A stretch of 64,000 nt of DNA from Lysobacter enzymogenes (lineage in GTDB: Bacteria > Pseudomonadota > Gammaproteobacteria > Xanthomonadales > Xanthomonadaceae): positions 1 to 64,000 of the forward strand of contig NZ_FNOG01000004.1 in assembly GCF_900106525.1 (NCBI RefSeq). The letters run 5' to 3'. Below are positions 1,024-44,710 of this stretch, piece by piece. The position numbers and the translations under genes were made by a program. Numbering within the stretch: position 1 is the first letter of the stretch; the number at the start of each line of letters is the position of its first letter. Under the pieces are notes generated by a model. It did not search any database and was not told the origin of the DNA. It worked only from the letters and a program-made list of their open reading frames with translations.

Positions 1024-1334
1024 GCTGAAAAACTCCGGGGGAAGAGTGTGCGCTAGTCTATCCGCGCAACCCGCCGCCCGTCGCGACTTGCGTCGCCACG
1101 CTGCTTCGCTCGTCGCAAATCGTCAGCTGCGGTTCAAGCATCGTCGCCGCAGGGTGCGCAAGACGCCGCCACAGTTGCCTGCCCGCATACCCGCCCCGAG
1201 CCCGCGGCTGTGAACTGAATCGGCATCCGCCCTGCCCTTGCCTGGCGAATCCAAGCCGCCTCGGCATGCGGCAAGAAGCGGGACCGCGCGCCCGCCGCCG
1301 CGCAGCGCGCGGTCGCACGGCCCCTGGCCACGCA
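1024..1334. other. intergenic region between the metalloprotease gene and glmS
   Basis: About 310 bp without a convincing gene. Open frames across it show shadow-type arginine-rich composition. It presumably contains the glmS promoter on the minus strand, but I see no clear -35/-10 pair and no strong hairpin followed by a T tract. Confidence 0.5.
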
Positions 1335-3545
1335 CTACGGCGCGATCGGCGCGCCGGTGAACACCGTCCAGCCGGCCGGATAATTGCGATAGAACGAACC
1401 CGACGAATCGGAGGGGAAGCCGTAGACGCTCGTGGTGTTGTAGTTCGCGCCGGTGCCGTCGTTCAACGACATCCACATATCGCGCAAAATGCCGCTGGTC
1501 CACAGCATGCTGGCGGTGGCGCCGCCATAGCGATCCACCGCGATCGGGCTGTGCAGCAGTTCGAGCAGCGGACCACTGACCGATTGCGTGCCGATCCTGC
1601 CGCCGCCGTCCATGGTCCACACGGTCGCCGCCGACAGCAGCAAGGCGTTGGTGTCGAAAGCCAGATCGGCCTTGTTGTCGTTGTTGAAATCGCCGCTGCC
1701 GACCAGCGTCCAGCCCTGCGGGTACTGCAGCCCAGTCTGGACGATGGTGAACGTGGTATTGCCGTTGTTCTTCCAGTACTCCAGGCGGCGGTCGGCGTTG
1801 GCCCACATCAGATCGATCAGGCCGTCGCCGTCGAAGTCGCGCGCGGCGACGACCCGGTAACCCGCAGTGATGTCGAAACACTTGACCGATGCAGTGCTGG
1901 TTCCGTTCATCACCCACACGCGCAACTGAGTTTCGCCGGGTTTGGTGAACAAGATGTCGCTTTTGCCGTCGCCGCTCAGGTCCGCCGCGCCGATCACGTC
2001 CCAGGACGTGACCGACTTGGCGGTCGTCTGGAAGGTGTAGTCGGCTTGCGCGGTCCATATCTGCGGCTCGCGGGCGTCGCTGTTCCAAACGAAATCGGTT
2101 CGGTGGTCGCCGTTGAAATCGCCGGCGGCGACGAGGCGGAAGCCCGCGCCCATCGTCTGCTTGCCACCGTAAGCGGCGTAAGTACCGCGATACAGGATGA
2201 AGGCCATCGCGCCGTCGTTCTGCAGCACCAGGTCGGCCATGCCGTCGCCGTCGATGTCGATCAACGGGTCCAGCGGCTGATTGAAGGCCGAGGCCACGCG
2301 CAAGGTGGTGCGCAGAGCCCGCGCTTGGTTGGCGGTGCCGGCGTCGCCGCAAGGCTGGCCCTTGCACAGATAGATGTCTGGGTTGGAGTAATAAGGCGCG
2401 GGCGATTGGCCGGAAGAGCCGTAGGCCATCAGGGTGTAGAAGCCGCCACCGGGAAGATCGCGTTTCCAGCCGAACGTATAGGGAAACGGCCCAGGCTTAT
2501 CGCTGTTGGCCGAATCGTGGACCAAGCCCCAATTGTGGCCGAGCTCGTGACTGAACGTGGTGTCTTTGCAGTAGGTCGTGCTGTTGTCGTCCGTGCCGTC
2601 GCTGATCGCGGCGTTCGCGCCGCCGCCGGATGCCGTGGTGTAGGGCCCCAGATTGCTGCCGTTGACCGTCGCCAAGCCGCAATTGCCGTGTTCCGGCGTC
2701 AGGAACGGACGCACGATGGTAAGCATGTCGGCGCCGGAGGCACGACGCGCGTCGCGCAGCACCTGCAACGGCCCCACCCCGCTTCGGTCGCCGAGCGCAT
2801 CGAGGGTTGCCGAGTTGGTTTCGGTCTCCGGGTAGGCGACCTGCTTGGTGCCGACCAAACGCAGAGTGGCATCGACTTGACTATCGATGAACGCTTGGTT
2901 GGTAACCGAAACCAGATAATTGATCCGGGTCAGCGCCGCCGATTGCGAACCGTAGCGCGTCACCAACCCTGGCGTGTAGCCGACGAACACGTCCACCACC
3001 GGACCGGCGGTCTTGGCCAGCGCGATCTTGGTCCGCAACGCGTCCTTGGCGCTTGCCAGCATCGGCTGCGCCTCGATGAAGTCGGGCGACGCTTTGAGGC
3101 CTTTCGCGGCGCTGATGCGATCCGCGTCCTGCATGGGGTCGGGCACGATCAAATAGGTCGCGCCCTTGCGCGTGTCGAGTTTCAGCGGCGAACCGTCTTC
3201 GGCGACCAGCGCGCCGAACGACGCGTCCTTGCCGCTGGCGACCATGACCGTGCGCTCGCTTGCGTCCTTGAGCCGGACCTTGCCCACCCACAGCAAGGTC
3301 CCGTCGGGCAGGAACTGGTGGCGCGAGGTGCGGGCGAACACACGCTGGCCCGAGGGCGTGGCGATCCACATCCCGCGCTCGACGATGGCCTGTTCCAGCG
3401 CGTCGGGATTGAGCGTCACCCGTTGCTCGCGAACGGCGGCGGCCGCGATTTTCTGCAGCGGCGGCGATTGGAACAGCGACGGCGGCGCGGCGACGGCCGG
3501 CGCGGCGATCGCCATGGAAAGGGCCAGCAACGACAACTTCGACAT
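1335..3545 (-). CDS. secreted metzincin metalloprotease with C-terminal FG-GAP/VCBS repeats
   Basis: A 736-residue precursor with a signal peptide (MSKLSLLALSMAIAAPAVAA). Its central metzincin zinc site reads HELGHNWGLVHD (HExxHxxGxxHD), followed about 30 residues later by the Met-turn YTLMAYG. This matches reprolysin-like (M12-type) secreted proteases. The region before it is probably a propeptide. The last ~300 residues hold at least five calcium-binding FG-GAP/VCBS-type repeats, for example DIDGDGMADLVL, DFNGDHRTDFVW and DLSGDGKSDILF, expected to form a beta-propeller. A GGGAG-type Shine-Dalgarno lies about 8 nt before the ATG. It ends a co-directional run of surface-protein genes and may process or partner them (inference). 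Substrate unknown. Confidence 0.88.
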   Translation of the reverse strand: MSKLSLLALSMAIAAPAVAAPPSLFQSPPLQKIAAAAVREQRVTLNPDALEQAIVERGMWIATPSGQRVFARTSRHQFLPDGTLLWVGKVRLKDASERTVMVASGKDASFGALVAEDGSPLKLDTRKGATYLIVPDPMQDADRISAAKGLKASPDFIEAQPMLASAKDALRTKIALAKTAGPVVDVFVGYTPGLVTRYGSQSAALTRINYLVSVTNQAFIDSQVDATLRLVGTKQVAYPETETNSATLDALGDRSGVGPLQVLRDARRASGADMLTIVRPFLTPEHGNCGLATVNGSNLGPYTTASGGGANAAISDGTDDNSTTYCKDTTFSHELGHNWGLVHDSANSDKPGPFPYTFGWKRDLPGGGFYTLMAYGSSGQSPAPYYSNPDIYLCKGQPCGDAGTANQARALRTTLRVASAFNQPLDPLIDIDGDGMADLVLQNDGAMAFILYRGTYAAYGGKQTMGAGFRLVAAGDFNGDHRTDFVWNSDAREPQIWTAQADYTFQTTAKSVTSWDVIGAADLSGDGKSDILFTKPGETQLRVWVMNGTSTASVKCFDITAGYRVVAARDFDGDGLIDLMWANADRRLEYWKNNGNTTFTIVQTGLQYPQGWTLVGSGDFNNDNKADLAFDTNALLLSAATVWTMDGGGRIGTQSVSGPLLELLHSPIAVDRYGGATASMLWTSGILRDMWMSLNDGTGANYNTTSVYGFPSDSSGSFYRNYPAGWTVFTGAPIAP

Positions 3546-3605
3546 GACGGTATCTCCCAGTGAAGGAACACCAATCCCCTGTTCGGTGGCGCGCGCGGGT
3601 TCGCG

Positions 3606-3929
3606 TTACGCCCGGCGCGGACCGCAGTGCGTGGCGTCCGCGCACGGCGATGCCTGGAGGTCTTCGCTGGTTTCCGCCACCGGCCAGGATTCGCCGGCGC
3701 GCCGCATCTGCGCGCGCTCGCATTCCTGCTCGAACCAGAACCCGACCCAGTAGACGACGCTGCGGCTGGGCTTGAAGCGCAGGTACTCGGGATGCGTGCG
3801 TTCGATCCAGGCATAGAAATCGTCGAAGCGGCCGGGATCCAGCGGCTTTCCGACCTCGCACACGGCCAGCGCCCACTGCCGGCACAGCTCGCGCACTTTC
3901 GCCTCGCACACGGCCCGTAGCGTCCTCAT
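3606..3929 (-). CDS. small hypothetical protein (107 aa)
   Basis: Unrecognised. The product is rich in Trp, Cys, Arg and aromatic residues (FDDFYAWIERTHPEYLRF, VVYWVGFWFEQECER), with no signal peptide or clear membrane segment, so probably a compact cytoplasmic protein. A GGAG motif sits 5 nt before the ATG. It lies 49 bp after the MbcA/ParS-like gene and 60 bp before the metalloprotease, all on the same strand. That arrangement suggests co-transcription and perhaps a two-gene unit with its upstream neighbour. It shows no RES-toxin signature. Coding status rests on codon composition, RBS and operon position. Confidence 0.6.
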   Translation of the reverse strand: MRTLRAVCEAKVRELCRQWALAVCEVGKPLDPGRFDDFYAWIERTHPEYLRFKPSRSVVYWVGFWFEQECERAQMRRAGESWPVAETSEDLQASPCADATHCGPRRA

Positions 3930-3978
3930 GCGCGCGCTCCGGGCCGCCCCGCGCGCGGTGGGCCGCGGCGATCCGCGC

Positions 3979-4338
3979 TCAGCATCGCTGCGTCGCCAGG
4001 CATTCGAGCACGTCCGCGGCGCGCCCTTGCGCGCAAAGCTCGGCCGGCGTGCGGTAGTCGCACGGCGCGATCGGACAGTTCTTGAACCAGAACACCAGCT
4101 GCCGCTCGTCGTCGAAGCGGTCGTAGGCGGCGCCGAGCACCCGCACCAGCTCGCGCAGCGAAAGCTGTACCTGCGGCGACATCGGCGCCAGCCGGAAACG
4201 CTCCGGACGCAGCCGGCACATGTCCGCCAACTCGCGGCGTTTGATCCCCAGCAACTCGCACAGGCGTTCGCTGGAGAAATGCGGCGAATCCTCGTACTGC
4301 AGCGCCGCGAAAAAATCGGTGAATTCGCGTTGCGTCAT
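3979..4338 (-). CDS. MbcA/ParS/Xre-type toxin-binding domain protein (DUF2384-like)
   Basis: A 119-residue protein. Its N-terminal half looks like a degenerate helix-turn-helix (LCELLGIKRRELADMCRLRP). The C-terminal half follows the DUF2384 antitoxin pattern: a helix ELVRVLGAAYDRFDD, then a Trp/Phe segment, then TPAELCAQGRAADVLECL, comparable to the family's TPxELLxxGxxxxVxxxL ending. Such proteins normally neutralise RES-domain toxins, but no RES gene is adjacent. The next gene downstream encodes an unrelated 107-residue protein. It starts 21 bp after the stop of the CshA/GEVED protein, so it is probably in the surface-protein operon, where it could be a regulator. Family assignment moderate; role unknown. 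Confidence 0.62.
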   Translation of the reverse strand: MTQREFTDFFAALQYEDSPHFSSERLCELLGIKRRELADMCRLRPERFRLAPMSPQVQLSLRELVRVLGAAYDRFDDERQLVFWFKNCPIAPCDYRTPAELCAQGRAADVLECLATQRC

Positions 4339-4359
4339 CGCAAGCCCGCCTCCGCGCCG

Positions 4360-6366
4360 TCACTGCACGACGCAGTCGAACTGCAGGGTCAGGCTCGCGC
4401 CCACCGCCAGCGTCCCCAAGGTCACGCCGGTTCCCTGCAAATCGCCGACGGTCGCCGTCGTGGCCGGACAGGCGCCGGCCGCGCCGGTGCAGGTCACCGC
4501 GTTGGCGGTCGGGCAATCCAACCCGGCCTGGGCCGGGTCGGTGACGACCGCACCGATGGCGGTGCCCGGGCCGTTGTTGGTCACGGTCACGGTGTACTGA
4601 CTCGCCTGCCCGTGTTCGCTGGCGGTGCGGTTATTGGTCTTGGCGATCGCCAGGTCCGCCTGATTGGGCGTGTTGGTGATCGTGCAGGTCAGGTCGTTGC
4701 CGTTGTTGAAGGTGATGCTCCAGTCCGCCGGCCCGGTGCCGGTGGGGCCGGTGGGCGTGGGTACGGCGCCGGTGCTTCCGGCATTGGCCACGCAGGTCAG
4801 GCTCGGCGTGTACCGCAGCAGCGCCGATCCGCCGGCATTGGCATCGCGCAGGGTGTAGGGCCCGGTCACGTCCACCGGCAGTTCGCCGGTGGTCGCGGTG
4901 AGCGCGGTGCCGGCCGTGGTCGCCGTACCGATCGAGGTGGCTCCGTCGAAAACGCCCACGGTGAATTGATCGGTGGCATCGATGCGCGAGACGATCCGCT
5001 TGTTCAAGATCACCTTGGCCGGCGCGAGCGCGGTGATGAGGTAATCCTCCACTTCGCCATCGGCGGCCGCGCCGGTTGGAGTAGCGATCTGCGCGGCCAC
5101 CGATGCGGTGCGGATGCGCATGTAACTGCGCCCCTGCGCGGCATTGGCCGGTACGTCCCAGTTCAAAGCCACGGTCCCGCTGCCGTTCGGCCCGCCCGGA
5201 CACACCGGGCTGTTGTTCGATACCTCGCCAGGATCGTTGAAATCGCCGTCGCGGTTGAAGTCGATCCAGCCGCGCACGACACCGCCACCACTGCAGGCGA
5301 TGAGCGGCGGGGTGTAGGTCGCGCCCGGCACTGCGACCACCACGCCCAAGGGCGCGGTGAAACCGTCTTCGTCGTCTTCGCCGAGGGTGTCGTCGCCATC
5401 GGCATTGGCGCCATGGCTGGCCTCCAGTTCGGCATCGACCCGGCTGCCCAGCCGCGCAGTCGGCTGGACTAAGTTGGCTAGGGTCATGCTGTGCAATTGG
5501 GTGGTGGAATTGGGCGCTAGGTCGCCGCCCGACCACGAAGGCTGCGCGTCGTGGGTCGGATTGCCATAGCTCGCCGGCGCATCGCCGAAGTCGGTGGTGA
5601 AAACCACCATCGCGCCAAGCGCAATGGCCGATTGTCCGCCGCCTTTCAACACGACCTCCGCCGTGGTCGTACCCTCCATGAAGGCCACCCCTATGGGGCC
5701 CGATTGGCAAAGGGAGGGGGCACCGTTCATCCGCAGCGCGCTTTGGCCGGCGCTGTCGGTCCGGACCAGCGGCGTATCCGTCGTCGTGCAATTGCGGAAG
5801 CGGTCGATCATCCGCCACGTCGTGCCGGCGCTGCTGATCGTGCCTTGGGTGTATTCGTTCTGCCCAGCCGCGTTCTGGGATTGTTCGGCATCGGCGAACA
5901 CCAGACCGGAGAGCGGATAGGCCGACGGATTGGGATCGCTAGGCGCTCCCAATGTAGCGGAGCAAGCGAAAGTGAAGGTGATCGTCGCTCCGCCGGGGGA
6001 ACTAACCAGTCCGATATCCATCGTGTTTGCGGCGCCAACGCCGCCGACGTTGTACAGGTCGTCCAGTCCGTCGCCGCCGAAGTCGCCCGGCTGCTTGATG
6101 AACATGTTGCCGACCTTGTTGCTGATCGAGCAGGTCATGCGCAGCGCCTGACCCGACGGCGTAGCGAACGTGTTGGTGACCGTCGTGCCTGCCGCCGGAA
6201 TGGTGGCGCCTCGGTCGCCCCAATCGAACCAGAAGATCTGCGACTTGAAGCGTCCGCTGCCACCTGTGGCGAACTGCGCCTGCGCGGGGACGCTCGTCAA
6301 CGCGAGAAACGCCAGAACACACAGCCGCTTCGAAAGCGTCGGCGAAAGATTCTTTTTCGTGGACAT
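4360..6366 (-). CDS. secreted CshA-type / GEVED / DUF11 surface protein
   Basis: A 668-residue exported protein with a signal peptide ending VPAQAQ. Residues ~30-260 resemble the non-repetitive CshA/CshB fibrillar-adhesin domain (FWFDWGDRGATIPAAGTTVT near the start). Residues ~270-450 contain a GEVED domain, with NPTHDAQPS before it and GWIDFNRDGDFND then AADGEVEDYLIT inside it. A short Ig-like segment follows. The final ~100 residues are a DUF11 domain (ADLAIAKTNN, YTVTVTNNGPGTAI). AAGGAG lies 6 nt before the ATG. It is the third gene after the DUF11 giant and the beta-barrel protein, only 16 bp behind the barrel stop, so the three are very likely one transcript. Probably a surface adhesin or scaffold; no sortase or anchor motif is visible. 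Confidence 0.82.
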   Translation of the reverse strand: MSTKKNLSPTLSKRLCVLAFLALTSVPAQAQFATGGSGRFKSQIFWFDWGDRGATIPAAGTTVTNTFATPSGQALRMTCSISNKVGNMFIKQPGDFGGDGLDDLYNVGGVGAANTMDIGLVSSPGGATITFTFACSATLGAPSDPNPSAYPLSGLVFADAEQSQNAAGQNEYTQGTISSAGTTWRMIDRFRNCTTTDTPLVRTDSAGQSALRMNGAPSLCQSGPIGVAFMEGTTTAEVVLKGGGQSAIALGAMVVFTTDFGDAPASYGNPTHDAQPSWSGGDLAPNSTTQLHSMTLANLVQPTARLGSRVDAELEASHGANADGDDTLGEDDEDGFTAPLGVVVAVPGATYTPPLIACSGGGVVRGWIDFNRDGDFNDPGEVSNNSPVCPGGPNGSGTVALNWDVPANAAQGRSYMRIRTASVAAQIATPTGAAADGEVEDYLITALAPAKVILNKRIVSRIDATDQFTVGVFDGATSIGTATTAGTALTATTGELPVDVTGPYTLRDANAGGSALLRYTPSLTCVANAGSTGAVPTPTGPTGTGPADWSITFNNGNDLTCTITNTPNQADLAIAKTNNRTASEHGQASQYTVTVTNNGPGTAIGAVVTDPAQAGLDCPTANAVTCTGAAGACPATTATVGDLQGTGVTLGTLAVGASLTLQFDCVVQ

Positions 6367-6382
6367 CGTCGTCTCCTTCGCC

Positions 6383-9300
6383 TCAGTACTTGCCGACGAC
6401 GTTAAGGAACACGCCGCGATGGTCGTAGTCGAAATCGGTCAGGTCGTCGCTGAACTCGGTAAAGTTGTAGCCAAGCCCGATGCGGAAGTTTTCGCCGAGA
6501 TCGCGGTCGATGCCGAGCAGCACGCCACGCTTTTCGCCGCCGTCCTTCACCCCGAGCCAGCGGTACTCGGCCAGCGCGTGCCAGACGCCGGCGAACTCGT
6601 AGCGCACCTGCCCGGCGGCGAAGGTCGCGGCCGAATCGGCCCATTGCCCTTGCAAGCGGCCGTAACGCACCTCGCCTTCGCGGCGCATCAGCTTGAGCGC
6701 GTATTCCCAGCGCTGCTCGGGCTGGTACACGCCTTCCAGCGACAGCACCTGGCTGCGTTGGTCGTAGAAGGCGACGTTGGGGCCGTCCTGCTCCAGCGCC
6801 GACAGGTCGTACAGATAGGTGTACTTGCCCAGCAGCGCCCAGGCGGTACTGTCGAACGGCCGCCAGGCGAAACCGAGATTGGCTTCGATGAACTTCGCGC
6901 CGGCGGCCGACAACTGCTTGTCCTGGGTCTTGGAGTAGTTGATGCGCGCGGCGATGCGGAAGCTCTCGTTGAACTTGTGCAGCAGGCGATTGGTGCTGAC
7001 CCACTGCTCGCGCCGCTCGGCGCCGGAGTCGCGACGCCATTCCAGCTTGCTCTGCCACTGCGTGTCGGCGTTGGTGCGGCCACCGCTGAGGCTGATCGCG
7101 TCGCGGTCCACCTGCCCCGCGTCCTTGTCCAATTGCGCCGATTGCAGGGTGAAGCCGAGGTTCCAGTTGTCGCCCGGATAGAAATCCATGCCGAAGGTAT
7201 GGGCGAGGCCGGACGCGTCGGGTTCCTTGAGGAACTGGCTCTCGTTGAACAGGTTGACCTGGTTCGACAGGCGCCAGCGCTGGCCCAGGGTCCAGCCCGG
7301 CGTCTGCCGGCGGTTGAACAAGGGGTCGTACTCGCTGCGGTCGGTGGAATGGGTGTAGGCGGCGTAGACGCTGTGGTCCGGCGTGAGCCGGTACTCGGCG
7401 TTGACCTGGGCCGCATCGCCGCGGTCGCCGGTGGTGACTTCGGCGCCGACGCTGGACAGATCGCCGAACAGGTACTTGCCGCCGAGGGTCAGCGCGTCGT
7501 TGTCGCGGTACTTGCCGTGGTCGTCGTCGAAGGTCTTCTGCGCGGTGCCCGACCATTCCCAGCTCGTGCCGACCCGGCGCAGATAGCGCAAGGCGGCCAG
7601 GCTGCCGACCGCATCGGCCGACGGCCCGCCGGCGCGCGCTTCCTCGACCCGGCGCAGCTCAGCGCTGAGCGTGTTGTCCTCGTCGATGCGCCACTCGCCG
7701 GTGAGCTGCGCCTGGGTGAACGACTCTTGCCCGCGTTCGGCCTTGCTGTAGCGCGAGTACAACTGGAAGCGTTGGCCGATCATGCCGATCAGCTCGGCGC
7801 CGCGCTCTTCGATGTCCTGGCCCTGATCGAAACGGCTGATCGAATAGCCTGCATCGACCTTGCGCCACCACGCGCCGACCGCCCAGTCGTCGTGGGTCCA
7901 GCCCAATTCCTTGAAGTTGGCCCGCGCCTCGACCGCACGGGCGCTGCCCTGGCGCGCGCCGAGCGCGGCGTTGCGCTGGACGAAGCTCAGGCCGCCGTTG
8001 CCGGAGAAGAACACCGGCGCGCTGGTGGCCTGGGTGCGGCTGTGCTCGAGTTTGAGGTAAGTGCCGCGCCCGGCCTGCAGGGTCACGTCCGCGCCCTTGA
8101 GCGTGTAGTCCTCGCCGGAACGGTTCTCATCGACGTAGGTCGCGCCGACCGCGACGTGCTGGCCGAACCAGTGCTTGCCGCGCACACCGAGGGTGACGTC
8201 GTCGGGGTCGAAGCCGCGCGGGACGTACTCGTAATCGACCAGCAGCACCTGGCTGAGGCCGTCGAGCGGCGTGTCGATGGTCAGGCGCGGCAGATTGGCG
8301 CGGTCGGCGCGGGTCAGCAGCGGTCGCGACAGTTCCAGCCGGCCCTGCAGCTCGTTGATGGTGTAGTCGGCGCCGCGGTGCAGTTCGATCCGGTTCTCGA
8401 CCCGGCCGGTGGTGTCGTCGCGCACTTCGATCGTCAGCCGTTCCGAGCCCGGCAACACATCGGTGTGCTTGAGGTAGTACAGGCTGCCGCCGGTGCCGAG
8501 GAATTCGCTGTGGCCGGGCGCGGTCTGCGCTTGCGAGCCGAACGCGCGCAGCGTGGTGCCCGCCTCGCCCAGATTCGTGGTGCGCTGCGAACGCCACTCG
8601 AACGCGCCGCCGTACAGCGCGCGCGAGTACTGGCCGTACTCGGTGCCGGTGATGCCGGTATTGAAGTTGCCCCACAGCGCCTGGTTCTTGTCCCAGTCCA
8701 CGCGCAGGTACAGCCGGCCCATCGTGTCGACGTCGCGGTAGACGGTGGAATCGTCGCCGTAGACCGGGTAGTACAGGTTCGGGTCGAGGCGGCGGAACAC
8801 GTCCTGCGGGTCGGCGTCCCAGAAGCCGCTGAACAGCTCGCTGATCTCGCGTTCCTGGGTGTCGGCCTGGGCAGTGACCAGATACTTGCCCTTGAACTTG
8901 CCCTTCAGATAGAACGCCAGGCGGCCGTCGACCAGCAGGCTGTCGTCCAGCCGCTCGGCATCGGCGCCCAGCGCTTCGACCGAACCCGACGCGCTGTTCT
9001 TCGACACGGTCACGTCGGCCAGCGCGATCGCGAACAGGTACTTGCCGCTGACGTCGACATCGAGTTCGCGCTGGAGCGAGCCGTCCTTGCCGTCGACGGC
9101 GATGTCGAAACGGTGGCGGCCGACCGGCACCAGGTATTCGGCGGCGAGCTTGCCTTCCAGGTCGACCGGCTGCGACTGGCCGTTGATGGTCACGCTGGCG
9201 TTTTCGGGCAGGTTGCGGCCCTGGATGCGGATGCGCGAGCCGTAGATGCGGATGTTCTGCTGGCGCAGGCCGTTTTCGCCGAAGGCCTGGTCGATCAGGC

Positions 9301-10027
9301 TGCGCTGCTGGGCCTGTTCGGCGCTCAAGGCATCGCCGTAGCGCTGTTCCACCGCGCGGCGCAGTTGCTGCGCGCCGCGTTCGGCCTCTTCGGGCCGCAC
9401 CAGTTGCAGCTTGCGCGGATAGGTTTCGTCGAACGCGCCGTCTTCGCCGTAGGCACGCACGAGGTAGACCAGTTCGTCGCCGGCGCGCGCTGCGAAGTTC
9501 GCCGGCAGTTCGCCGTTCCACTGCGCGCTGGCGGTGGCACCGGCCGGCAGCGGCACTGTCGCCAGCGGCTCGACCAGATCGCCGTCGCTGGCGCGGTAGA
9601 TCAGCACCTCGGCGCGGCGGATGAAGGCCGCGTAGTTGTTCTGCAGGTAGAACTGCACCGGCGCGACCACCTTGCGCCCGTCGAAGGACACCAGGCTCGG
9701 CGCGGACACGTTGAGTTCGGGCTGGCCGAGGTTGGGATCCTCGGTGGCCCAGATCACCCCGCCCGCCGGCAGGCGCGCGCTCCACTGGCCGGTGGCGGCG
9801 GAGCCGCGGGCCGGTGCGAGCGGCGCGGCGGAGTTCGCGTTGACGGCGGCGGCGGCCGCAACGGCCGGCGCCATTGCTTCGGTGCGCGCGGCATTGTCCG
9901 CCGCCGCGCGCGCCACTGCGCCGGCGGCGAACGGCGAAGGCGCGGCGCCTTGCGCCCACACCTGGAGCGGCAAGCCGGCGATCGCGCACAGCAGGGAGTA
10001 ATCGAGCAGCTTCAGTTTCAGGCTCAT
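6383..10027 (-). CDS. large predicted outer-membrane beta-barrel protein of the DUF11 cassette
   Basis: A 1214-residue exported protein. The start is the ATG in the TGATG overlap with the upstream gene, with AGGAGAGG just before it; an apparent reading frame extending further upstream is a shadow of the DUF11 gene. A signal peptide (LPLQVWAQ) is followed by an Ala-rich linker and Ig-like beta domains to about residue 380 (RIRIQGRNLPENASVTING). Residues ~390-1214 are alternating amphipathic strands rich in Tyr, Trp, Asp and Arg, ending NVVGKY with a terminal aromatic as in outer-membrane barrels. No TonB-dependent plug or OmpA peptidoglycan-binding domain is seen. Translational coupling to the DUF11 protein suggests it displays, exports or anchors that protein (inference). 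Family not recognised by name. Confidence 0.8.
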   Translation of the reverse strand: MSLKLKLLDYSLLCAIAGLPLQVWAQGAAPSPFAAGAVARAAADNAARTEAMAPAVAAAAAVNANSAAPLAPARGSAATGQWSARLPAGGVIWATEDPNLGQPELNVSAPSLVSFDGRKVVAPVQFYLQNNYAAFIRRAEVLIYRASDGDLVEPLATVPLPAGATASAQWNGELPANFAARAGDELVYLVRAYGEDGAFDETYPRKLQLVRPEEAERGAQQLRRAVEQRYGDALSAEQAQQRSLIDQAFGENGLRQQNIRIYGSRIRIQGRNLPENASVTINGQSQPVDLEGKLAAEYLVPVGRHRFDIAVDGKDGSLQRELDVDVSGKYLFAIALADVTVSKNSASGSVEALGADAERLDDSLLVDGRLAFYLKGKFKGKYLVTAQADTQEREISELFSGFWDADPQDVFRRLDPNLYYPVYGDDSTVYRDVDTMGRLYLRVDWDKNQALWGNFNTGITGTEYGQYSRALYGGAFEWRSQRTTNLGEAGTTLRAFGSQAQTAPGHSEFLGTGGSLYYLKHTDVLPGSERLTIEVRDDTTGRVENRIELHRGADYTINELQGRLELSRPLLTRADRANLPRLTIDTPLDGLSQVLLVDYEYVPRGFDPDDVTLGVRGKHWFGQHVAVGATYVDENRSGEDYTLKGADVTLQAGRGTYLKLEHSRTQATSAPVFFSGNGGLSFVQRNAALGARQGSARAVEARANFKELGWTHDDWAVGAWWRKVDAGYSISRFDQGQDIEERGAELIGMIGQRFQLYSRYSKAERGQESFTQAQLTGEWRIDEDNTLSAELRRVEEARAGGPSADAVGSLAALRYLRRVGTSWEWSGTAQKTFDDDHGKYRDNDALTLGGKYLFGDLSSVGAEVTTGDRGDAAQVNAEYRLTPDHSVYAAYTHSTDRSEYDPLFNRRQTPGWTLGQRWRLSNQVNLFNESQFLKEPDASGLAHTFGMDFYPGDNWNLGFTLQSAQLDKDAGQVDRDAISLSGGRTNADTQWQSKLEWRRDSGAERREQWVSTNRLLHKFNESFRIAARINYSKTQDKQLSAAGAKFIEANLGFAWRPFDSTAWALLGKYTYLYDLSALEQDGPNVAFYDQRSQVLSLEGVYQPEQRWEYALKLMRREGEVRYGRLQGQWADSAATFAAGQVRYEFAGVWHALAEYRWLGVKDGGEKRGVLLGIDRDLGENFRIGLGYNFTEFSDDLTDFDYDHRGVFLNVVGKY

Positions 10028-13000
10028 CACGGCGTCCTCTCCTGGCTGCGCGGCGTCGGCGCGCTCGCATCGCGTGGGTCCTGCGGCGCGGTCGGCGCGG
10101 CTCCCGCCTTGGCGTCTGGAGCCGGCCCGGGCGGCGCTGGAGCTCGCGACGGCTCCTGCGGCGGCAGCTTCGCGCCGAAGTCGAAGCGCACCGGCAGGCC
10201 CGGAGTGATCCGGCGCAACAGCGGATTGGCGGTGGTCAGCACCGTGCCCGGCGGCAAGGTCGCCGGATCGACCTTGAGGATGAAGTTGCGTCCGCGCTCC
10301 CACGCGCCGCCCGGAACGCCTTCGAGGTGATATCGGCCGAACGGATCGGTCTCGATCAGCAGGCCTTCGACCGAGGCGATGCGCACGCCGGGGATGCCGC
10401 GTTCGTCGACGCCATCGTTGTAGATCGCGTACTCCACCCGCACTCCGCCTTCGACCTGGGCGACGCGGCGCTCCACGCGCGGCGCGGCGGCGTCCAGGCC
10501 CTTGCCGGCGCGGCCGCTGCGCTGCACGGTGTTGCGGCCGTCGGCGTCCATGCGCAGTTCGACGCCGTCGCCGCCGCTCAGGGCGAAATCGCCGGTGAAG
10601 CGCGGTTCGCGCAGGGTCTGGGCGATCGTCACCAGCGGTGCCGGATCGGCGTCGGAAGCGCGGCCCGGCAAGCGGCCCAGGTCGATGCCGTGCAACAGCG
10701 GCGCGCTCGCATCGCTGAGCGGCTTGGGGCCGTCGCCGCGGTCGATGGTGGTGGAACCGGGCACGTAAGCCTCGGGCGCGAAGCCGCCGCGCACGTGCAC
10801 CTTGTCCAGCGTGGCGGCGTCCTGCCAACCGTCGCTGTCGCGGTCGTCGAACACCGTGCCGAGGATCAGCGATTCGTCCAGCAGCGGATCGGCGACCAGG
10901 CGCACTTCGGCCTGGGCGGTGTTGGACACGGTGGCGCCGTTGTCCTGGGCGATGGCGCGGTTGACGTGCGTGCCCGGCCGCACGCCGGCGCCGACCCGCA
11001 GCAGGTAGGCGATGGTGGCGCGTTCGCCGCGGGCGATGTCGATCCGGTCGACCCGGATCGGATAGTTGCCGGTCTGGCGTCCGGCGCCGTCGCGGTCGGC
11101 CACGCTCAGCGAACCGGACACGTAGCTGAAGCCCGGCGGCGGCGTGTCGATCACGGTCGCATCGACCGCGTCGGCGTCGCCGACGTTTTCGATGCTCAAG
11201 GTGTAGCGCACCAGATCGCCGATGCGCACGTCGCGCGGTTGCGCGGTCTTGACGATGCGCAGGCGCACGTTGCCGAGGATGTTGGCGCGCACCGTGGTCG
11301 GATTCGAGCGCAGGCCGGTGGTGTCGGCGACGCTGTACTGCACCGGCGTGGCCTCGCCGATGAAGCCCGGCGCGGGCACGAAGGTCAGCGTGCCGTTCGG
11401 ATTCACCGTCCACACGCCCTCGCCCGGCACCGTCAAGGTCTTGCCGTCGCCGCTGACGCCCGCGCCGACCAGCAGGACCGACGCCGGATCGATGTTGCCG
11501 TCGGGATCGGTGTCGTTGCCGAGCACCGCGATCACCAGCGGTTCGCCGGCACTGCCGGTGGCGACATCCTCGTTGTCGGGATTGGCGACCGGCGGGCTGC
11601 CGGTCACGCGGATCGTCGCGGTCGCGGTGTCGCACACCGGCGTCGGCGTCGAATGGTCGCAGACCTGGTAGACGAAACTGTCGTCGCCCAGATAGCCCGG
11701 GGTCGGCGTGTAGGTCACCGTGCCGTCGGGATTCAACACCACCGTGCCGTGCGCCGGCGGCGTCGGGAAGGTCACCGAGGCCGGATCCAGGGGCGCGCCG
11801 GTGGTGGTGTCGTTGCCGAGCACCGGGATCGGGCGCGGCGTGTTGGCCGGCGTGTCGATGACGTCGTCGGTCGCCGTGACCTGGTTGGGCTGCACGGTCA
11901 CCGTCACCGTGGCGGTGGTGCAATTGGCCGGATTGAGCGTCTCGCAGACTTGGTAGGTGTAGGTGTCGGTGCCGGAGAAGTTCGGATTCGGCGTGTAGGT
12001 GATGGTGCCGTCCGGGTTGACCGTCACCGTGCCGTGGGTCGGCGGCGTCGGTACGGTCAGCGTGACCTTGCTCGGGTCGATCGGCTGGCCGTTGAGGGTG
12101 TCGTTGCCCAGCACCGGCGTGACCACCGGGGTGTTCTGCGGCGTGGTCGCGGTGTCGGGCGTCGCGACCAAGGGCGCGGCGGTGACCACGACGGTGGCCT
12201 GACTGGTCGAGCAGTTGGTCGGGTTGAGCACCTCGCACACCGTGTACGGATAGGTGTAGGTGCCCGCTGGCGTGCCCACCGCGACGGCGATGGTGCCGTC
12301 GGGGTTCATGCTCAGGCCCGGGTTCGGGCTCGTGCCCGGCCTCAGCGTGGCGTTGCCGCCGCTGCCGACGGTGATCGGCTGGCCGTTGATGGTGTCGTTG
12401 CCGACCACCGACGGCGTGCGGCCGCCGCTGCCGCCGTTGATCGGCGTGCCGGTGTAGTCGTCGGGATTGGCGACGATCGGCGCGGCGCCGACCACGACGG
12501 TGGCGGTGGTGGTGCGGCAGTTGCTCGGGTTGAGCCGCTCGCACACCGTGTACGGATAGGTGTAGGTGCCTGCCGGCGTGCCCGGGGCGACGGCGATGGT
12601 CCCGTTCGGGTTCATCGTCAGGCCCGGATTCGGGCTCGCGCCCGGCGTCAGCGTGGCGTTGCCGCCGCTGCCGACGGTGACCGGCTGGCCGTTGATGGTG
12701 TCGTTGCCGAGCACCGAGGGCGTACTGCCGCCGCCGGCGCCGTTGATCGGCGTGCTGCTGTAGTCGTCGGGGTTGGCGACCAGGTCGGACGGATTCACCG
12801 TCACCGTGGCGTTGGTGGTCGCGCAGTTGGTCGGGTTGGCGACTTCGCAGATCGTGTACGGATAGGTGTAGGTGCCCGCCGGCGTGCCCGGCGCGACCGT
12901 GATGGTGCCGTTGGCGTTCATCGTCAGGCCCGGATTCGGGCTGGCGCCCGGCGTCAGCGTGGCGTTGCCGCCGGCGCCGACGGTGACCGGCTGGCCACCG

Positions 13001-14778
13001 AGGGTGTCGTTGCCGATCACGGTGGCGGTGGTGCCGCCGCTGCCGCCGTTGATCGCCGGCGGCGTATCGGGATTGGCGTTGATCGGGCGCGCGCCCGCGG
13101 TGGCCGGCGCATCGTCGCTGTTGTTGCCGGGCACCGGATCGGTGGTGCCGGCCGGCGCGGTCGTTGTCGCGGTGTTGTTGAACGCGCCGCCAGTGGCGCC
13201 GACCGTCGCGGTCACCGTGACCGTGGCGCTGCCGTTGACCGGGATGCTGCCCAAGGTGCACGGGAACGCCGTACAGCCGGCGCCGCTGACCGCGGTGATG
13301 GCGATGTTGCCCGGCGTGTCGGCGAGCACGAAGCCAGTCGCGACCGACGGGCCGTGGTTGGTCGCCACGATCTGGTACGTCACGCTCTGCCCGGCGACGA
13401 TCACGCCGGCGGTGGTGAGGGTTTTCTGCACCGCGACATCGGCGCTCGGCAAGGCGGTCGCGGTGACGGTGCCGGTGTTGTTGCCCGGCGTGGGATCGGT
13501 CTGTCCCGGCGGCAGGGTCGCGGTGGCGGCGTTGGCGAAACTGCCGTCGGTGCCGATCGTGCCGGCGACGGTGATCGTCGCCGACGCGCCTGCGGCGAGG
13601 TTGGCGATCGTGCATGGCAGCGCGCTGCAGGCCCCGCTGACCGCGCCGAGGGTGAGGTTGGTCGGCGTGTCGGCCACGGCGATGTTGCTCGCCGGCGACG
13701 GGCCGTTGTTGGTGACCACGATATTGAACGACACCGTCTGCCCGGCCCGATACGGCCCAGCCGTGGTCAGGGTCTTGGTCGTGGCGATGTCCGCCGACAC
13801 CGACGGCGTCACGGTGACGCTGCCGAAGTCGTCGCCGCCGCCGTCGCCCGGGGTGGAATCGGGATCGCGCTGGTCGACGCTGCTGACTTCGGCGTTGTTG
13901 ACGTGCGAGCCGGCCGCGTTGACGGTGGCGACGATGCTGCGGGTGGCGTTGGCGCCTGCCGCGATCGTGCCGATCACCCAGGCGCCGGTGCCGGCGGTGT
14001 AGGTTCCCGCGCCGGTCGAAGAGACGAAGGTGAAGCCGGCCGGCAGCTGGTCGGTGACGATCACGTTGCTGGCGTCGGACGGTCCGGCGTTGTCGACCCT
14101 CAGGGTGAACGTGACGTTGGACCCGATCGCCGCGCTGGCGTTGTCGACGGTCTTGGTCAGCGACAGATCGGCCGCGCCGTTGACCTGGGTCGGGTCGCTG
14201 GCGCTGCAACGCGCCGCTGGCGTACCTGGCGCGGCAGGACAGGTCGGATCGTTGCCTCCACTGGCCCGCGCGGTATTGGTTGCGGTGCCGATAGCGGCGT
14301 TGCCGACCGAAACCGTCAGCGTCACCGCGCTGCTGGCGCCGACGGCGATCGGCGTGGTGCTGGTGCAGGTCACGGCCTGGCCGCTGGCGCTGCAGGCCCA
14401 GCCGCTGCCGGTGCCGGAGACGAAGCCCAGGCCGTTAGGCAGCGTGTCGACGATAGTGACGGTGCCGGAGGTCGCCGCGCCGTTAGCGGCGGTGCTGGTG
14501 TTGCTCACCGTCAGCGTGTACGTGCCGTTGGTGCCGACGGTGAAGTTGCCGGTGTGGCTCTTGGCCATCGTCAACTGCGGCGCCAGCACCGTATCGGTGT
14601 CGGAAGCGCTGTTGTTGGCGGGCGTCGGATCGGCGCCGTTGGCGGGTGCGGACACCGTGGCGGTGTTGGTCACGGTCTGTGCGCCGGCCGGCAGGCCCGC
14701 CAGCGCCATGACGCACAGCAGCGTGCGCAGCATGCATCCGAACCACCTACAAGGCTTGCCGACAGCGTTCGAATTCAT
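10027..14778 (-). CDS. giant secreted DUF11 / Ig-like repeat protein
   Basis: A 1583-residue exported protein. I chose the ATG at 14778 because it has AGAGGG about 9 nt upstream and opens a signal peptide (MNSNAVGKP...LPAGAQ); the frame upstream is not signal-like. Four DUF11 repeats occupy residues ~67-560 (each like YTLTVSNTS or FNIVVTNNGPSPASN). Ig-like repeats of 102 residues follow to ~870, each with a VxGNDT motif and a TYTYPYT motif. Further Ig-like units carry TYTPxPxxxG motifs. A fifth DUF11 domain lies near 1185 (YTLSIENVGDADA), an SdrD-B/carboxypeptidase-like unit at ~1310-1500 (GTVFDDRDSDGW, GRYHLEGVPGG), and the tail is Pro/Ala-rich. Most likely an extended surface fibre or adhesin. 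Its stop overlaps the barrel start by one base. Confidence 0.86.
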   Translation of the reverse strand: MNSNAVGKPCRWFGCMLRTLLCVMALAGLPAGAQTVTNTATVSAPANGADPTPANNSASDTDTVLAPQLTMAKSHTGNFTVGTNGTYTLTVSNTSTAANGAATSGTVTIVDTLPNGLGFVSGTGSGWACSASGQAVTCTSTTPIAVGASSAVTLTVSVGNAAIGTATNTARASGGNDPTCPAAPGTPAARCSASDPTQVNGAADLSLTKTVDNASAAIGSNVTFTLRVDNAGPSDASNVIVTDQLPAGFTFVSSTGAGTYTAGTGAWVIGTIAAGANATRSIVATVNAAGSHVNNAEVSSVDQRDPDSTPGDGGGDDFGSVTVTPSVSADIATTKTLTTAGPYRAGQTVSFNIVVTNNGPSPASNIAVADTPTNLTLGAVSGACSALPCTIANLAAGASATITVAGTIGTDGSFANAATATLPPGQTDPTPGNNTGTVTATALPSADVAVQKTLTTAGVIVAGQSVTYQIVATNHGPSVATGFVLADTPGNIAITAVSGAGCTAFPCTLGSIPVNGSATVTVTATVGATGGAFNNTATTTAPAGTTDPVPGNNSDDAPATAGARPINANPDTPPAINGGSGGTTATVIGNDTLGGQPVTVGAGGNATLTPGASPNPGLTMNANGTITVAPGTPAGTYTYPYTICEVANPTNCATTNATVTVNPSDLVANPDDYSSTPINGAGGGSTPSVLGNDTINGQPVTVGSGGNATLTPGASPNPGLTMNPNGTIAVAPGTPAGTYTYPYTVCERLNPSNCRTTTATVVVGAAPIVANPDDYTGTPINGGSGGRTPSVVGNDTINGQPITVGSGGNATLRPGTSPNPGLSMNPDGTIAVAVGTPAGTYTYPYTVCEVLNPTNCSTSQATVVVTAAPLVATPDTATTPQNTPVVTPVLGNDTLNGQPIDPSKVTLTVPTPPTHGTVTVNPDGTITYTPNPNFSGTDTYTYQVCETLNPANCTTATVTVTVQPNQVTATDDVIDTPANTPRPIPVLGNDTTTGAPLDPASVTFPTPPAHGTVVLNPDGTVTYTPTPGYLGDDSFVYQVCDHSTPTPVCDTATATIRVTGSPPVANPDNEDVATGSAGEPLVIAVLGNDTDPDGNIDPASVLLVGAGVSGDGKTLTVPGEGVWTVNPNGTLTFVPAPGFIGEATPVQYSVADTTGLRSNPTTVRANILGNVRLRIVKTAQPRDVRIGDLVRYTLSIENVGDADAVDATVIDTPPPGFSYVSGSLSVADRDGAGRQTGNYPIRVDRIDIARGERATIAYLLRVGAGVRPGTHVNRAIAQDNGATVSNTAQAEVRLVADPLLDESLILGTVFDDRDSDGWQDAATLDKVHVRGGFAPEAYVPGSTTIDRGDGPKPLSDASAPLLHGIDLGRLPGRASDADPAPLVTIAQTLREPRFTGDFALSGGDGVELRMDADGRNTVQRSGRAGKGLDAAAPRVERRVAQVEGGVRVEYAIYNDGVDERGIPGVRIASVEGLLIETDPFGRYHLEGVPGGAWERGRNFILKVDPATLPPGTVLTTANPLLRRITPGLPVRFDFGAKLPPQEPSRAPAPPGPAPDAKAGAAPTAPQDPRDASAPTPRSQERTP
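12170..13085 (-). repeat. three in-frame tandem repeats of exactly 306 bp inside the DUF11 gene
   Basis: The anchor GTGTACGGATAGGTGTAGG recurs at 12242, 12548 and 12854, exactly 306 bp apart (102 codons). The units stay alike at nucleotide level over most of their length, including the segment encoding NPGLxMNxxGTI. More divergent related units flank them. Near-identical DNA repeats of this kind can expand or contract by recombination, changing the length of the surface protein. Confidence 0.9.
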
Positions 14779-15019
14779 GATGTGATCCCTCTTTTTTCCA
14801 CGCACAGACACGCCGCGCAGCGGTCGCGCAGCCCAGCCATCGTTGTCTTCGGTGCACACGCCCACGGGTCCGCGCGCCGGTCGGACGCATCGTGTCGGGA
14901 TCCCGTTTTGCCGCAACACCCGCACTTAAGCGGGACGGCGGAACTGCAAGTACTTCGTCACTCCACCGACGCGTCCGCTACCGCCGAACGCAACCGCCCC
15001 TGTGACTCAAGTAGTTAAC

Positions 15020-15042
15020 GCAACTGAATCAACGTCAGTTGC
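15020..15042. promoter_or_regulatory. inverted repeat, candidate operator upstream of the surface operon
   Basis: Perfect 8-bp arms GCAACTGA and TCAGTTGC separated by 7 bp. It lies about 240 bp upstream of the DUF11 gene start, in AT-richer sequence with no T tract beside it. An operator fits better than a terminator. The binding protein is unknown. Confidence 0.45.
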
Positions 15043-15072
15043 AGAAAAAATATCTACAGAAATTCGCCTGTC

Positions 15073-15103
15073 AAGCATGCGAATACTCACCGCCGGCATG
15101 CTT
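15073..15103. promoter_or_regulatory. second inverted repeat, candidate operator
   Basis: Perfect 8-bp arms AAGCATGC and GCATGCTT separated by 15 bp, so arm centres are 23 bp apart, about two helical turns. Each arm contains the self-complementary GCATGC. This fits a dimer or tetramer of a regulator, but chance cannot be excluded by eye. Confidence 0.4.
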
Positions 15104-15827
15104 ATGCGACATCCGGCAAAGATCGATGGATCGTTTGTGTGCCTAAAAAGCACCGAAAAAATCGCAGTCGAAAGCGATTATCAAATCGCGGGAGCGCCAA
15201 TGCCGCCCTCGACGTTTCGCGGCATCGGTCGGCCGCTCAAAGGCTTACCGCGAGACAATCGCACATCAAATACTCACTTAATGAGTACTGTTGGCATCCA
15301 CCTCCGCAGCACATCGCAAGAGCGCCGCGCGGAATCCAACGGCGTTTCTTATACGTAATTTTTATAAGCAAAAAGCTACGCAACTCGTGATGCCGATCCA
15401 CTCAAATTCGCGCACTGAAGCACCAAGAGCGACCATGCTTCCGCGCCGCTCAGGGTGCGAAACACATGATTTACGCTCATTTTTTGCGTAGTTTTTCCGC
15501 TTCAGCGCAGGCGCTTGCCAAGAGGCGGCGCTACTTGGACGCAACCCCGTCCATGCAGCGGCGCCGGCAGCGAGGCTTATCGGCGCGAAAATCGGCAGCG
15601 CGATGCATTCGGCCGCGTGCGCCGAACAGTCCGACGGGACTTATGCGCCGTGCTCATCAGCGCCTAACTTCCAAGCCGTTCGCGATTGCGCAGGAGAAGC
15701 CGGCGGACAATGCCATCGGCGGACGGGCCGCACTGTCCTGCGTCAGCTAGGCTCGACGAGGCCCGCCGCGGGATCATTAGGCGTGAGGTGGCGACCTGTC
15801 CGGCCGCAGGCAGGACACGATGCGCAG

Positions 15828-17549
15828 CTACAGCGCTTCGCGATGCACGACGATCAGCTGCACCGCTTCGCCGCCTCGATAATCGTCGGGCTCCAGTCGG
15901 TATGCGATGCGCACCCACGGCGGCGGCTTGTTGCCGTCCCAGCCGCCGAACTCGATGGCGTTGAGCCGGCGCCCTTCGCAGCCCAGCTCCAGCTTGAGGT
16001 GGCGCTCGCCGATCACCCGCCACGACAGCACTTCGAACTCGCCGTCGAATTGCGGCTCGGCGAAGCCCTGCCCCCACGGCCCGCCGTCGCGCAGCGATTC
16101 GGCGTGGCCGCGGTCGAACTCGGCCGGCGCCAGCGCTCCGTCGCTGAGCACGTCGGCCTGCAGCAGTTCCGGCGTCAGCGCCGCGCGCGCGACCGCGTCG
16201 AAGGCGTCGCGGAACGGTTCGAATGCGTCGCGGTGCAGCGACAGGCCCGCGGCCATGGCGTGGCCGCCGAAGCGTTCGATCAACTCGGGATGGCGCGAGG
16301 CCACGTCGGCCAGCGCGTCGCGGATATGGAAGCCGGGAATCGAGCGCGCCGAGCCGCGCAACTGCGCGCTGCCGGGCTCGGCCGGCGCGAACGCGATCAC
16401 CGGGCGGTGCAGGCGTTCCTTCATCTTCGATGCGACCAGCCCAACCACGCCGGGATGCCAGTCCGGGTCGAAAAGGCACGGCGCCAAGGGCGCTGCAGCC
16501 GGATCGAACGCCACGCGCGCGAACGCGCGCTCGGCCACGTCGGTCATCTGCTGCTGCACCGCGCGGCGTTCGGCGTTGATGTCGTTGAGCGTGGACGCGA
16601 TCTCGCGCGCCTGAGCCGGGTTTTCGGTCAGTAGGCACTCGATGCCCAGCGCCATGTCTTCCAGGCGCCCGGCGGCGTTGAGCCGCGGCGCCAGCGCGTA
16701 GCCGATGTCGGCCGCGGTGAGGCGGCGGTAATCGCGCTGCGCGACCTCGATCAGCGCGCGCAGGCCTGCGCCGCCCTGCCCCGAGCGCAGCCGGCGCAGG
16801 CCGGCGGCGACCAATGCGCGGTTGTTGGCGTCGAGCGGAACCAGGTCGGCGACGGTGCCGACCGCGACCAGATCGAGCAGCTGGCTGAGGTCGGGGCCGT
16901 TGTGGCCGGCGCCGAACGCGCCGGCTTCGCGCAAGCGCCGGCGCAATGCCAGCAGCACGTAGAACATCACCCCGACGCCGGCCAGCATCTTGCTCGGGAA
17001 CGCGTCGCCGGGCTGGTTCGGATCGACGATGGCGTCGGCCGGCGGCAGCGTTTCGCCGGGCAGGTGGTGATCGGTCACCAGCACCTGCCAGCCGCGCGTG
17101 CGCGCCGCATCGATGCCGGCGTGGCAGGCGATGCCGTGGTCGACGGTGACGAGCAGATCCGGTTGCAGCCGCGCCAATTCTTCCACCAGCGCCGGCGACA
17201 AACCGTAACCGTGCACGATGCGATTGGGCACCGCGTGCGAGACCCGCTTCGCGCCGAGCATGCGCAGGCCGCGCACGCCGACCGCGCAGGCGGTGGCGCC
17301 GTCGCAATCGAAATCGCCGACCACCAGGATGTGGCGGTCGTCGGCGATGGCCGCGGCCAGCAGTTCGGTGGCCCGGTCCAGGCCGAGCATGCCGTCGGGC
17401 GGCAGCAGTTGGGCGAGCTTGGGCTGGGCTTGTTCGATGCAGGTCGCGCCGCGCGCGGCGTAGATGCGCTGCAGCAGCGGCGGGATCGAGTCGGGCCAGT
17501 GCCCGTCGGCCGCCGGCTCGCGCCGGCGCAGGCGCGCGGCGGGCTTCAA
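15828..17549 (-). CDS. recJ: single-stranded-DNA-specific exonuclease RecJ
   Basis: A 573-residue DHH-family 5'-3' single-strand exonuclease acting in RecFOR recombination, mismatch repair and base excision repair. Metal-binding motifs are visible: DFDCDGATA near residue 80, TVDHG near 137 and the DHH motif TDHHLPGE near 160. The DHHA1 part contains GCEGRRLNAIEFGGWDG near the C-terminus. Length is normal for the family. It follows rpfE by 37 bp on the same strand, and greA-rpfE-recJ looks like one operon, as around the rpf region of xanthomonads. Downstream lies the AT-rich spacer, so the gene order usual after recJ in Xanthomonas (prfB, as I recall) is not seen here. Confidence 0.96.
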   Translation of the reverse strand: MKPAARLRRREPAADGHWPDSIPPLLQRIYAARGATCIEQAQPKLAQLLPPDGMLGLDRATELLAAAIADDRHILVVGDFDCDGATACAVGVRGLRMLGAKRVSHAVPNRIVHGYGLSPALVEELARLQPDLLVTVDHGIACHAGIDAARTRGWQVLVTDHHLPGETLPPADAIVDPNQPGDAFPSKMLAGVGVMFYVLLALRRRLREAGAFGAGHNGPDLSQLLDLVAVGTVADLVPLDANNRALVAAGLRRLRSGQGGAGLRALIEVAQRDYRRLTAADIGYALAPRLNAAGRLEDMALGIECLLTENPAQAREIASTLNDINAERRAVQQQMTDVAERAFARVAFDPAAAPLAPCLFDPDWHPGVVGLVASKMKERLHRPVIAFAPAEPGSAQLRGSARSIPGFHIRDALADVASRHPELIERFGGHAMAAGLSLHRDAFEPFRDAFDAVARAALTPELLQADVLSDGALAPAEFDRGHAESLRDGGPWGQGFAEPQFDGEFEVLSWRVIGERHLKLELGCEGRRLNAIEFGGWDGNKPPPWVRIAYRLEPDDYRGGEAVQLIVVHREAL

Positions 17550-17586
17550 CGCCGCGGCTCCGAACGCGCGATGGGCATGGCGGCGT

Positions 17587-18528: not shown

Positions 18529-18558
18529 GGCGGCCGGATCGGTGCGGATGGGCGCGGC

Positions 18559-44547: not shown

Positions 44548-44573
44548 TCAGTTGATCCGCAAGGGTCCGAAAC

Positions 44574-44616: not shown

Positions 44617-44710
44617 TGTCCGTCGTAGTCTGGCTTAGTCCTACATAGGACGTGCGACTTTGGGGGTATATGTTGGGGTACCTGACCCCATGCCCGAGCA
44701 AGCACCCCCA

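Follow-up and report, generated by a model that had tools for sequence, protein, structure and literature searches.

A stretch of 64,000 nucleotides from Lysobacter enzymogenes (contig NZ_FNOG01000004.1 of assembly GCF_900106525.1, positions 1 to 64,000; hereafter the window) carries three adjacent genes, here named A, B, and C, that encode a giant fiber protein with DUF11 repeats, a predicted outer-membrane barrel, and a secreted protein of the tip type. As judged from sequence comparison and structure prediction, the three products probably form one surface-display unit, in which B would hold and most likely export A, and C would be a clip-on tip adhesin. That A and B make up one functional unit is strongly supported. 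At the A/B junction, TGATG, base 10027 is common to the stop of A and the start of B, and C starts 16 bp past the end of B on the same (-) strand, which confirms the one-base overlap and the short gap reported in a preliminary description of this DNA. The fixed stoichiometric coupling of A and B that the same description read into this arrangement does not hold, the ratio of two proteins not being set by gene overlap. A conserved and unnamed barrel, coupled or fused to adhesins across many genera, is a candidate for their outer-membrane crossing.

The genome of the window (6.26 Mb) contains B twice more, at 69% and 58% identity. B is present in 27 of 60 genomes, its own included, in 53 of 369 genomes of a class sample, and in 59 of 398 genomes of a phylum sample, some genomes belonging to both, and at least 551 of the 593 pattern-matched stretches of a species collection encode relatives of it. 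Carriers include Variovorax, Acinetobacter, Colwellia, Kangiella, Hydrogenophaga, a Campylobacteraceae, and a Desulfobulbaceae bin, and the best named matches, among those listed, belong for the most part to records of Lysobacter and other Xanthomonads. Twenty-two plasmid records match B as well, and the three inspected (NZ_CP011453, NZ_CP029209, and NZ_CP106953) have a big gene annotated as OmpA family, DUF11, or SdrD-like directly upstream of it. The plasmid hosts of the A-B pair at loci L229, L230, and L231 are Alpha- and Betaproteobacteria. The barrels of these three loci are annotated as hypothetical protein, TonB-dependent receptor, and OmpA family protein, names in public records on which the present analysis bears.

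Gene neighborhoods were compared at 139 B loci, namely the window, 59 loci from 60 fetched stretches, and 79 of the best 80 of the at least 551 stretches, leaving out L110 (an upstream extension only) and L186 (B missed by the gene caller). A lies directly upstream of B on the same strand at 111 loci, the two genes overlapping at 48 of these and being 0-15 bp apart at 51, and it is fused to B at 18 others. Among the other ten, the contig ends before any upstream gene in three (L164, L206, and L221), an OmpA-bearing gene is present as nothing more than a cut-off end in L216, the order is B-OmpA-A in L051 and L052, a small ORF intervenes in L137, and A is found downstream in L142 and L226. The adjacency of A and B is more than chance. 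With A adjacent or fused at 129 of the 139 loci, homologues of B are usually found beside DUF11 proteins, as had been proposed, and the idea of a dedicated display or secretion pair is supported by this survey together with the barrel prediction. All 18 fusions follow the order DUF11, docking domain, OmpA domain where found, and barrel, thus fiber first and barrel last, with one extra OmpA match before the dock in L228. One of the fusions, on G170:C2 (L109/L110), lies in an open reading frame of 11,777 residues that ends in an OmpA domain and a barrel, and DUF11 matches number 31 and 16 in the two stretches of it that were read.

Pfam analysis of A reports five DUF11 stretches along with Big_9, cadherin-like, and CshA repeats, and the protein begins with a hydrophobic leader, judged by eye and not by a predictor. 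A combines the N-terminal secretion signal and the tandem-repeat stalk by which fibrillar adhesins are recognized. Neither a CshA_NR2 nor a GEVED adhesive domain is reported in A by Pfam; both sit in C. The AlphaFold2 model of residues 1165-1583 of A reaches a mean predicted local distance difference test (pLDDT) of 86.7, the final ~40 residues falling below 50. The most strictly kept part of A is a C-terminal docking domain of ~85 residues that all 111 split A proteins and all 18 fused chains possess, counts that are partly by construction since some of these rows entered the profile and A was recognized by a profile containing the dock. Across the 60 genomes, 52 of 53 matches to this domain have a B no more than 6 kb away, and the 53rd (G015) is at a contig start, with B at the other end of the same contig. 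The reverse comparison covered 56 of the 68 B rows, the 12 short fragments excluded coming mostly from broken-up copies in G017 and G004; a dock is nearby in 52 of them, and those without are the G015 case, contig ends in G009 and G033, and one B of G004. On G004:C1, six places match B, five of them with docking domains of identical score, and several are broken, shortened, or frame-split, which suggests recent amplification and decay of the cassette. A kinship between the A tail and the N-terminal domains of B was rejected by profile comparison (1.4%).

The peptidoglycan-binding OmpA domain occupies changing positions in the system. Pfam places it at the C-end of A in the paralogue L033, ahead of B in L045, within the fused chains of L224 and L228, and in a separate gene in L048 and L049. 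Our own OmpA profile, which is looser than Pfam and whose match in L111 is unconfirmed by it, detects the domain at 107 of 129 loci. It forms the C-terminal end of A at 76 of these and the N-terminal end of B at 12, is encoded by the next gene at 6, and is part of the fused chain at 9 or adjacent to that chain at 4; none is seen at the other 22. At the 81 readable loci out of the 111 split ones, a cysteine pair near the N-terminus of B is present in 69 of 74 cases when A has an OmpA domain and in 1 of 7 when A is devoid of it. The occurrence of the same module in differing places of these sequences argues that fiber, anchor, and barrel would work as one object with a periplasmic base.

Window B does not return any match in Pfam, NCBIfam, PHROG, or PDB sequences, hence no TonB plug and no OmpA match, in line with its first description as neither TonB-dependent nor OmpA-like. 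Autotransporter and POTRA domains of Pfam are likewise without a match in B. Two relatives pass the cut-offs of Pfam barrel families, the fused L111 with OMP_b-brl (43.5 bits, cut-off 28.7) and L207 with Porin_4 (35.9 bits, cut-off 27), the other porin-type Pfam matches among B relatives being weak. The AlphaFold2 model of the barrel (pLDDT 78.5, predicted template modeling score 0.73) has 43 strands with at least six residues, which corresponds to about 40 strands, and B is thus predicted to be a very large outer-membrane barrel. The earlier view of the C-terminal part of B as a transmembrane barrel is sustained by these ~885 residues of barrel-like strands and by the two relatives above the Pfam cut-offs. 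Assignment of B to a named family was discarded; the only six PDB sequences reached by its family profile, with E values no better than 0.46, were taken as chance. An internal duplication of the barrel, tried as well, is weak at best (47% probability over 53 columns between two thirds of the barrel).

Pfam analysis of C reports CshA_NR2, SpaA_3, and GEVED domains and a DUF11 match that ends at profile position 82 out of 114. With our own DUF11 profile, C stops at model position 86, and residues 30-52 of A match positions 87-108; we refer to the truncated domain of C as the catcher and to the orphan strand of A as the tag. The residues at the bonding positions are Lys576 and Asp610 in C and Asn38 in A. 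The text of PMC12617251 gives the isopeptide bond of 9IFR as Lys715-Asn806. These two residues fall on model positions 6 and 95, which places the isopeptide asparagine within the strand missing from the truncated domains. Among the DUF11 proteins of the loci other than A and B, 63 of 74 end in a truncated DUF11, with the lysine and the aspartate each kept in 60 of these 63. When DUF11 stands at the very C-end of such proteins, 64 of 65 end by position 93, versus 11% of 890 others. Pfam's independent DUF11 model ends at 80-88 out of 114 in six of the nine truncated-domain proteins scanned. Regarding the other partner, 129 N-termini of A were considered, of which 66 run off the stretch, 7 are without a leader, and 56 are readable, and the strand motif lies right behind the leader in 30 of the 56. 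A neighbor with a truncated DUF11 accompanies 22 of the 30 tag-bearing A proteins versus 2 of the 26 tagless ones (Fisher p 5e-7, p-values being merely indicative here, as the stretches were picked from match lists, often several per genome, and the loci are related). At unfused loci alone, the figures are 18 of 25 with the tag and 1 of 20 without. Scored by profile, the tag strand is found in 28 of 56 A, 3 of 90 B, and 7 of 358 other genes. Some tagless A proteins start with another head, such as the A. silvestris protein with NR2 and GEVED.

The genome of the window contains five further matches to the ending of C (L258-L262, on C9, C22, C12, and C16; weakest E 3.6e-4). Four of them end at about the end point of C, the fifth representing a second type; a polysaccharide-lyase domain occurs in one of the five and CshA_NR2 in two. 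The copy of A on contig C2 carries, by eye, a first strand of the second type, and matched classes of tag and catcher possibly exist in this genome. With three copies of B and six C-like endings, C included, one set of fibers could carry different adhesins or enzymes.

Taken together, the proposed mechanism would run as follows. B would anchor the fiber A in the outer membrane and most likely export it. The docking domain of A would remain at B, either inside the pore or on the periplasmic side, with the N-terminal repeats reaching outside. In most relatives the OmpA domain would also tie the fiber base to peptidoglycan, and in the fused ones a single chain would provide fiber, dock, OmpA where present, and barrel. 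The predicted pore is wide, with a backbone of about 70 A for 40 strands, a width at which folded domains could pass, tip first. The last DUF11 (CLIPPER) domain of C, devoid of its final strand, would be completed by the first strand of mature A through donor-strand complementation, which would set the lysine and aspartate of C and the asparagine of A where such domains form their isopeptide bond. The coupling of the genes, the fusions, the association of dock and barrel, and the complementary ends of A and C are established at the level of sequence. Beyond these, export of A through B is the most probable step, the position of C at the tip is less so, and the covalent junction is the least certain; the direction of the fiber and a function in adhesion are inferred. 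A bolder proposal, to which we give somewhat less than even credence, is that the system represents a separate class of outer-membrane export, in which a barrel of ~40 strands passes folded, isopeptide-locked fibers tip first and exchangeable tips are bonded covalently via a naturally split DUF11.

Several points weigh against this reading. The barrel model was built on 74 sequences and has poor loops, its closure and strand number are approximate, and hydrophobic alternation, rejected as a proof of membrane strands, does not distinguish barrel from soluble strands (0.35 versus 0.36). L192 is a true orphan B, with no DUF11 gene in 21.6 kb, one B of G004 has no dock nearby, and the OmpA C-terminal anchor is absent from window A and from its ortholog in L035. 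Some of these same proteins went into our DUF11 profile, the tag match of window A falls short of significance by itself (E 1.4), the case resting on the family, and 73 of the 129 A N-termini are unreadable. The regular expression used for the tag also hits 15% of shuffled windows and overlooks some look-alikes, eight tag-bearing A proteins are without a truncated-DUF11 neighbor, and two such neighbors occur without a tag. In the remaining three of the nine proteins scanned with Pfam, the match stops at 56 (L261), is lacking (L260), or covers an internal domain only (L149). The residue named Asp748 in the text of PMC12617251 corresponds to Asn748-Asp749 in the present reading. Finally, 11 of 53 truncated-DUF11 proteins themselves score as tag-bearing, seven of them convincingly by eye, so that the partner of the catcher need not be A; these seven, with a genuine-looking tag, could polymerize. 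B could also anchor A without exporting it.

This last possibility, in which B is a static outer-membrane tether and A surfaces by another route, such as type II secretion, before docking, is in our view unlikely, and yet it is the strongest of the alternatives. The gene coupling, the docking domain, and the OmpA placement fit anchoring equally well, and C-like tips must in any case have a separate route, but the one-chain forms would then require giant N-terminal repeats to be exported before or during barrel insertion, and a predicted barrel of ~40 strands would far exceed the needs of a tether. Somewhat less likely still, B could be an usher on which DUF11 proteins lacking the last strand are assembled by donor-strand exchange, A merely being the base. 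VIA-align analysis of the barrel model ranks ushers at the top among the matches listed, with other barrels within a few Z units. However, B was rejected as a sequence relative of ushers (hhalign probability 0.4%, with a shallow profile made from ushers of related genomes), the usher model PF00577 matches two other sites of the window genome and not B, and no chaperone domain is found among the seven window proteins scanned. Moreover, the list of tag-bearing proteins does not include window C, and A itself is already a giant stalk.

It is improbable that B is an uptake channel or porin around whose pore A and C form a capture layer, like a surface receptor. Several plasmid homologues are named "TonB-dependent receptor" in public records, and porin-type Pfam matches exist that are weak, one of them over its cut-off, but Pfam reports no TonB plug in window B or in seven of its relatives, and the A-B fusions and peptidoglycan anchors are unlike the layout of a receptor. 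The display unit, with B holding and most likely exporting A, is the reading we favor. The coordinates of its components and of the neighboring genes are collected in Table 1, in which the mature start of A is deduced from its leader.

Table 1. Components of the A-B-C locus and adjoining genes, in positions of the window
Feature	Position	Strand	Remark
A, giant secreted fiber (stalk) protein, DUF11/CLIPPER and Big_9/cadherin-like repeats, 1583 aa	10027..14778	(-)	
A residues 34-58, orphan last DUF11 strand (tag) at the mature N-terminus	14605..14679	(-)	
Asn38 of A	14667-14665	(-)	model position 95, the isopeptide Asn position
Tandem repeat in A, 306 bp x 2.9 copies (~102 residues each)	12173..13055	(-)	
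A residues 1165-1583, conserved C-terminal region (DUF11, more beta domains, docking domain) and Pro-rich tail	10030..11286	(-)	
Docking domain of A, ~85 aa	10149..10422	(-)	part accompanying B
B, predicted outer-membrane barrel protein, 1214 aa	6383..10027	(-)	
B residues 78 to 328, soluble N-terminal domains	9044..9796	(-)	probably periplasmic
B residues 329-1214, predicted ~40-strand transmembrane barrel	6386..9043	(-)	structure prediction
C, secreted tip-type protein, CshA_NR2, GEVED, SpaA_3, and truncated DUF11, 668 aa	4360..6366	(-)	
C residues 571-668, C-terminal DUF11 without last strand (catcher)	4363..4656	(-)	
Lys576 of C	4641-4639	(-)	
Asp610 of C	4539-4537	(-)	
119-aa protein, weak Xre/ParS-antitoxin resemblance	3979..4338	(-)	probably outside the system
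107-aa protein, no Pfam family	3606..3929	(-)	near the system in L035 alone
M12B reprolysin-like secreted protease with FG-GAP repeats	1335..3545	(-)	adjoins the system also in L035

The preliminary description had considered that two genes downstream of C, an MbcA/ParS-like one and the protease, may belong to the same unit. The "MbcA/ParS-like" label of the 119-residue protein is derived from one sub-threshold match (17.6 bits, cut-off 90). The ParS-like gene, the 107-residue gene, and the protease are near the system at one of 20 loci (L035), and in 12 further genomes with a ParS-like relative this lies away from the B matches, the nearest at 17 kb (G019). The ParS-like gene is accordingly rejected as a regular partner and its place in the unit is not upheld. 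The protease adjoins the system at this same one of the 20 loci, no genome-wide search for it having been made. In the window (1335-14778) and in L035 (G018), the six genes from A to the protease stand together and their flanking neighbors are not the same, which would fit a joint move of the whole block. With Rfam gathering scores, no structured RNA is reported in 1000-18600; a promoter scan returns 1 site versus 1.3 expected by chance, and terminator-like sites number 16 versus 10.0 expected. Elsewhere in the window, a transfer-messenger RNA gene is followed by a 2-kb step with a guanine-cytosine content of 55% (44194-48000), the other 2-kb steps having 62-75%, and this region is possibly an integration site. 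The tRNA-Val that ARAGORN reports at 18379-18474, inside a 313-residue ORF of the same strand, is probably a false call.

OmpA-anchored, DUF11-stalked fibrillar adhesins of Proteobacteria have already been described in the texts of PMC12617251 and PMC10952558, and fibrillar adhesins are the subject of PMC9210967 as well. The CshA_NR2/GEVED head, DUF11 (CLIPPER) stalk, and OmpA anchor of these Gram-negative adhesins, such as B9T28_05395 of Acinetobacter silvestris, are domain types common to both systems (PMC12617251, PMC10952558), but the window has its head as the separate protein C and is devoid of an OmpA anchor. B9T28_05395 is given in the text of PMC12617251 with 2129 residues, K715, and N806, as is the case for the A protein of L197 (A. 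silvestris ANC 4999; 2129 residues, K715, and N806), whose gene lies directly upstream of a B gene. The main texts of PMC12617251, PMC10952558, and PMC9210967 do not contain "outer membrane", those of PMC10952558 and PMC9210967 do not contain "barrel", and that of PMC12617251 does not contain "beta-barrel", so that no barrel partner appears there in those words. Neither the A-B pair nor the clip was found described in the open PubMed Central literature on DUF11 in connection with OmpA, barrels, autotransporters, or adhesins, or on split isopeptide domains. Regarding SprA, the type IX translocon, no PDB sequence match links it to B.

The B system resembles type V secretion in that fused forms have the passenger first and the barrel last, and split forms are neighboring genes. 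It differs in that the split passenger has a conserved C-terminal element and an OmpA domain often separates the passenger from the barrel. Type V barrels have 12 or 16 strands. In contrast to type Va, the window has two genes, the one-chain form occurring at 18 of 139 loci, and ~40 predicted strands instead of 12; in contrast to the two-partner type Vb, B is without a POTRA match and has about 40 predicted strands instead of 16. In chaperone-usher pili (FimD/PapC), a tip domain lacking its last strand is completed by the N-terminal strand of the next protein. The ends of C and A are complementary by sequence and may pair in a like manner, and part of the barrel model resembles ushers, but there is no detectable sequence relation, no chaperone is seen, the stalk is one giant chain, and the bond may be covalent. 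SpyTag/SpyCatcher is an engineered split, in which a strand with one bonding residue is set apart from the domain carrying the lysine. Similarly, the strand of A would carry one bonding residue and the domain of C the lysine; here, however, the split would be natural, within a CnaA-like DUF11 domain and between two separately encoded secreted proteins. Should this split domain in fact bond, the engineered tag/catcher pairs would have an equivalent in nature, and the display of different heads by one stalk would be accounted for.
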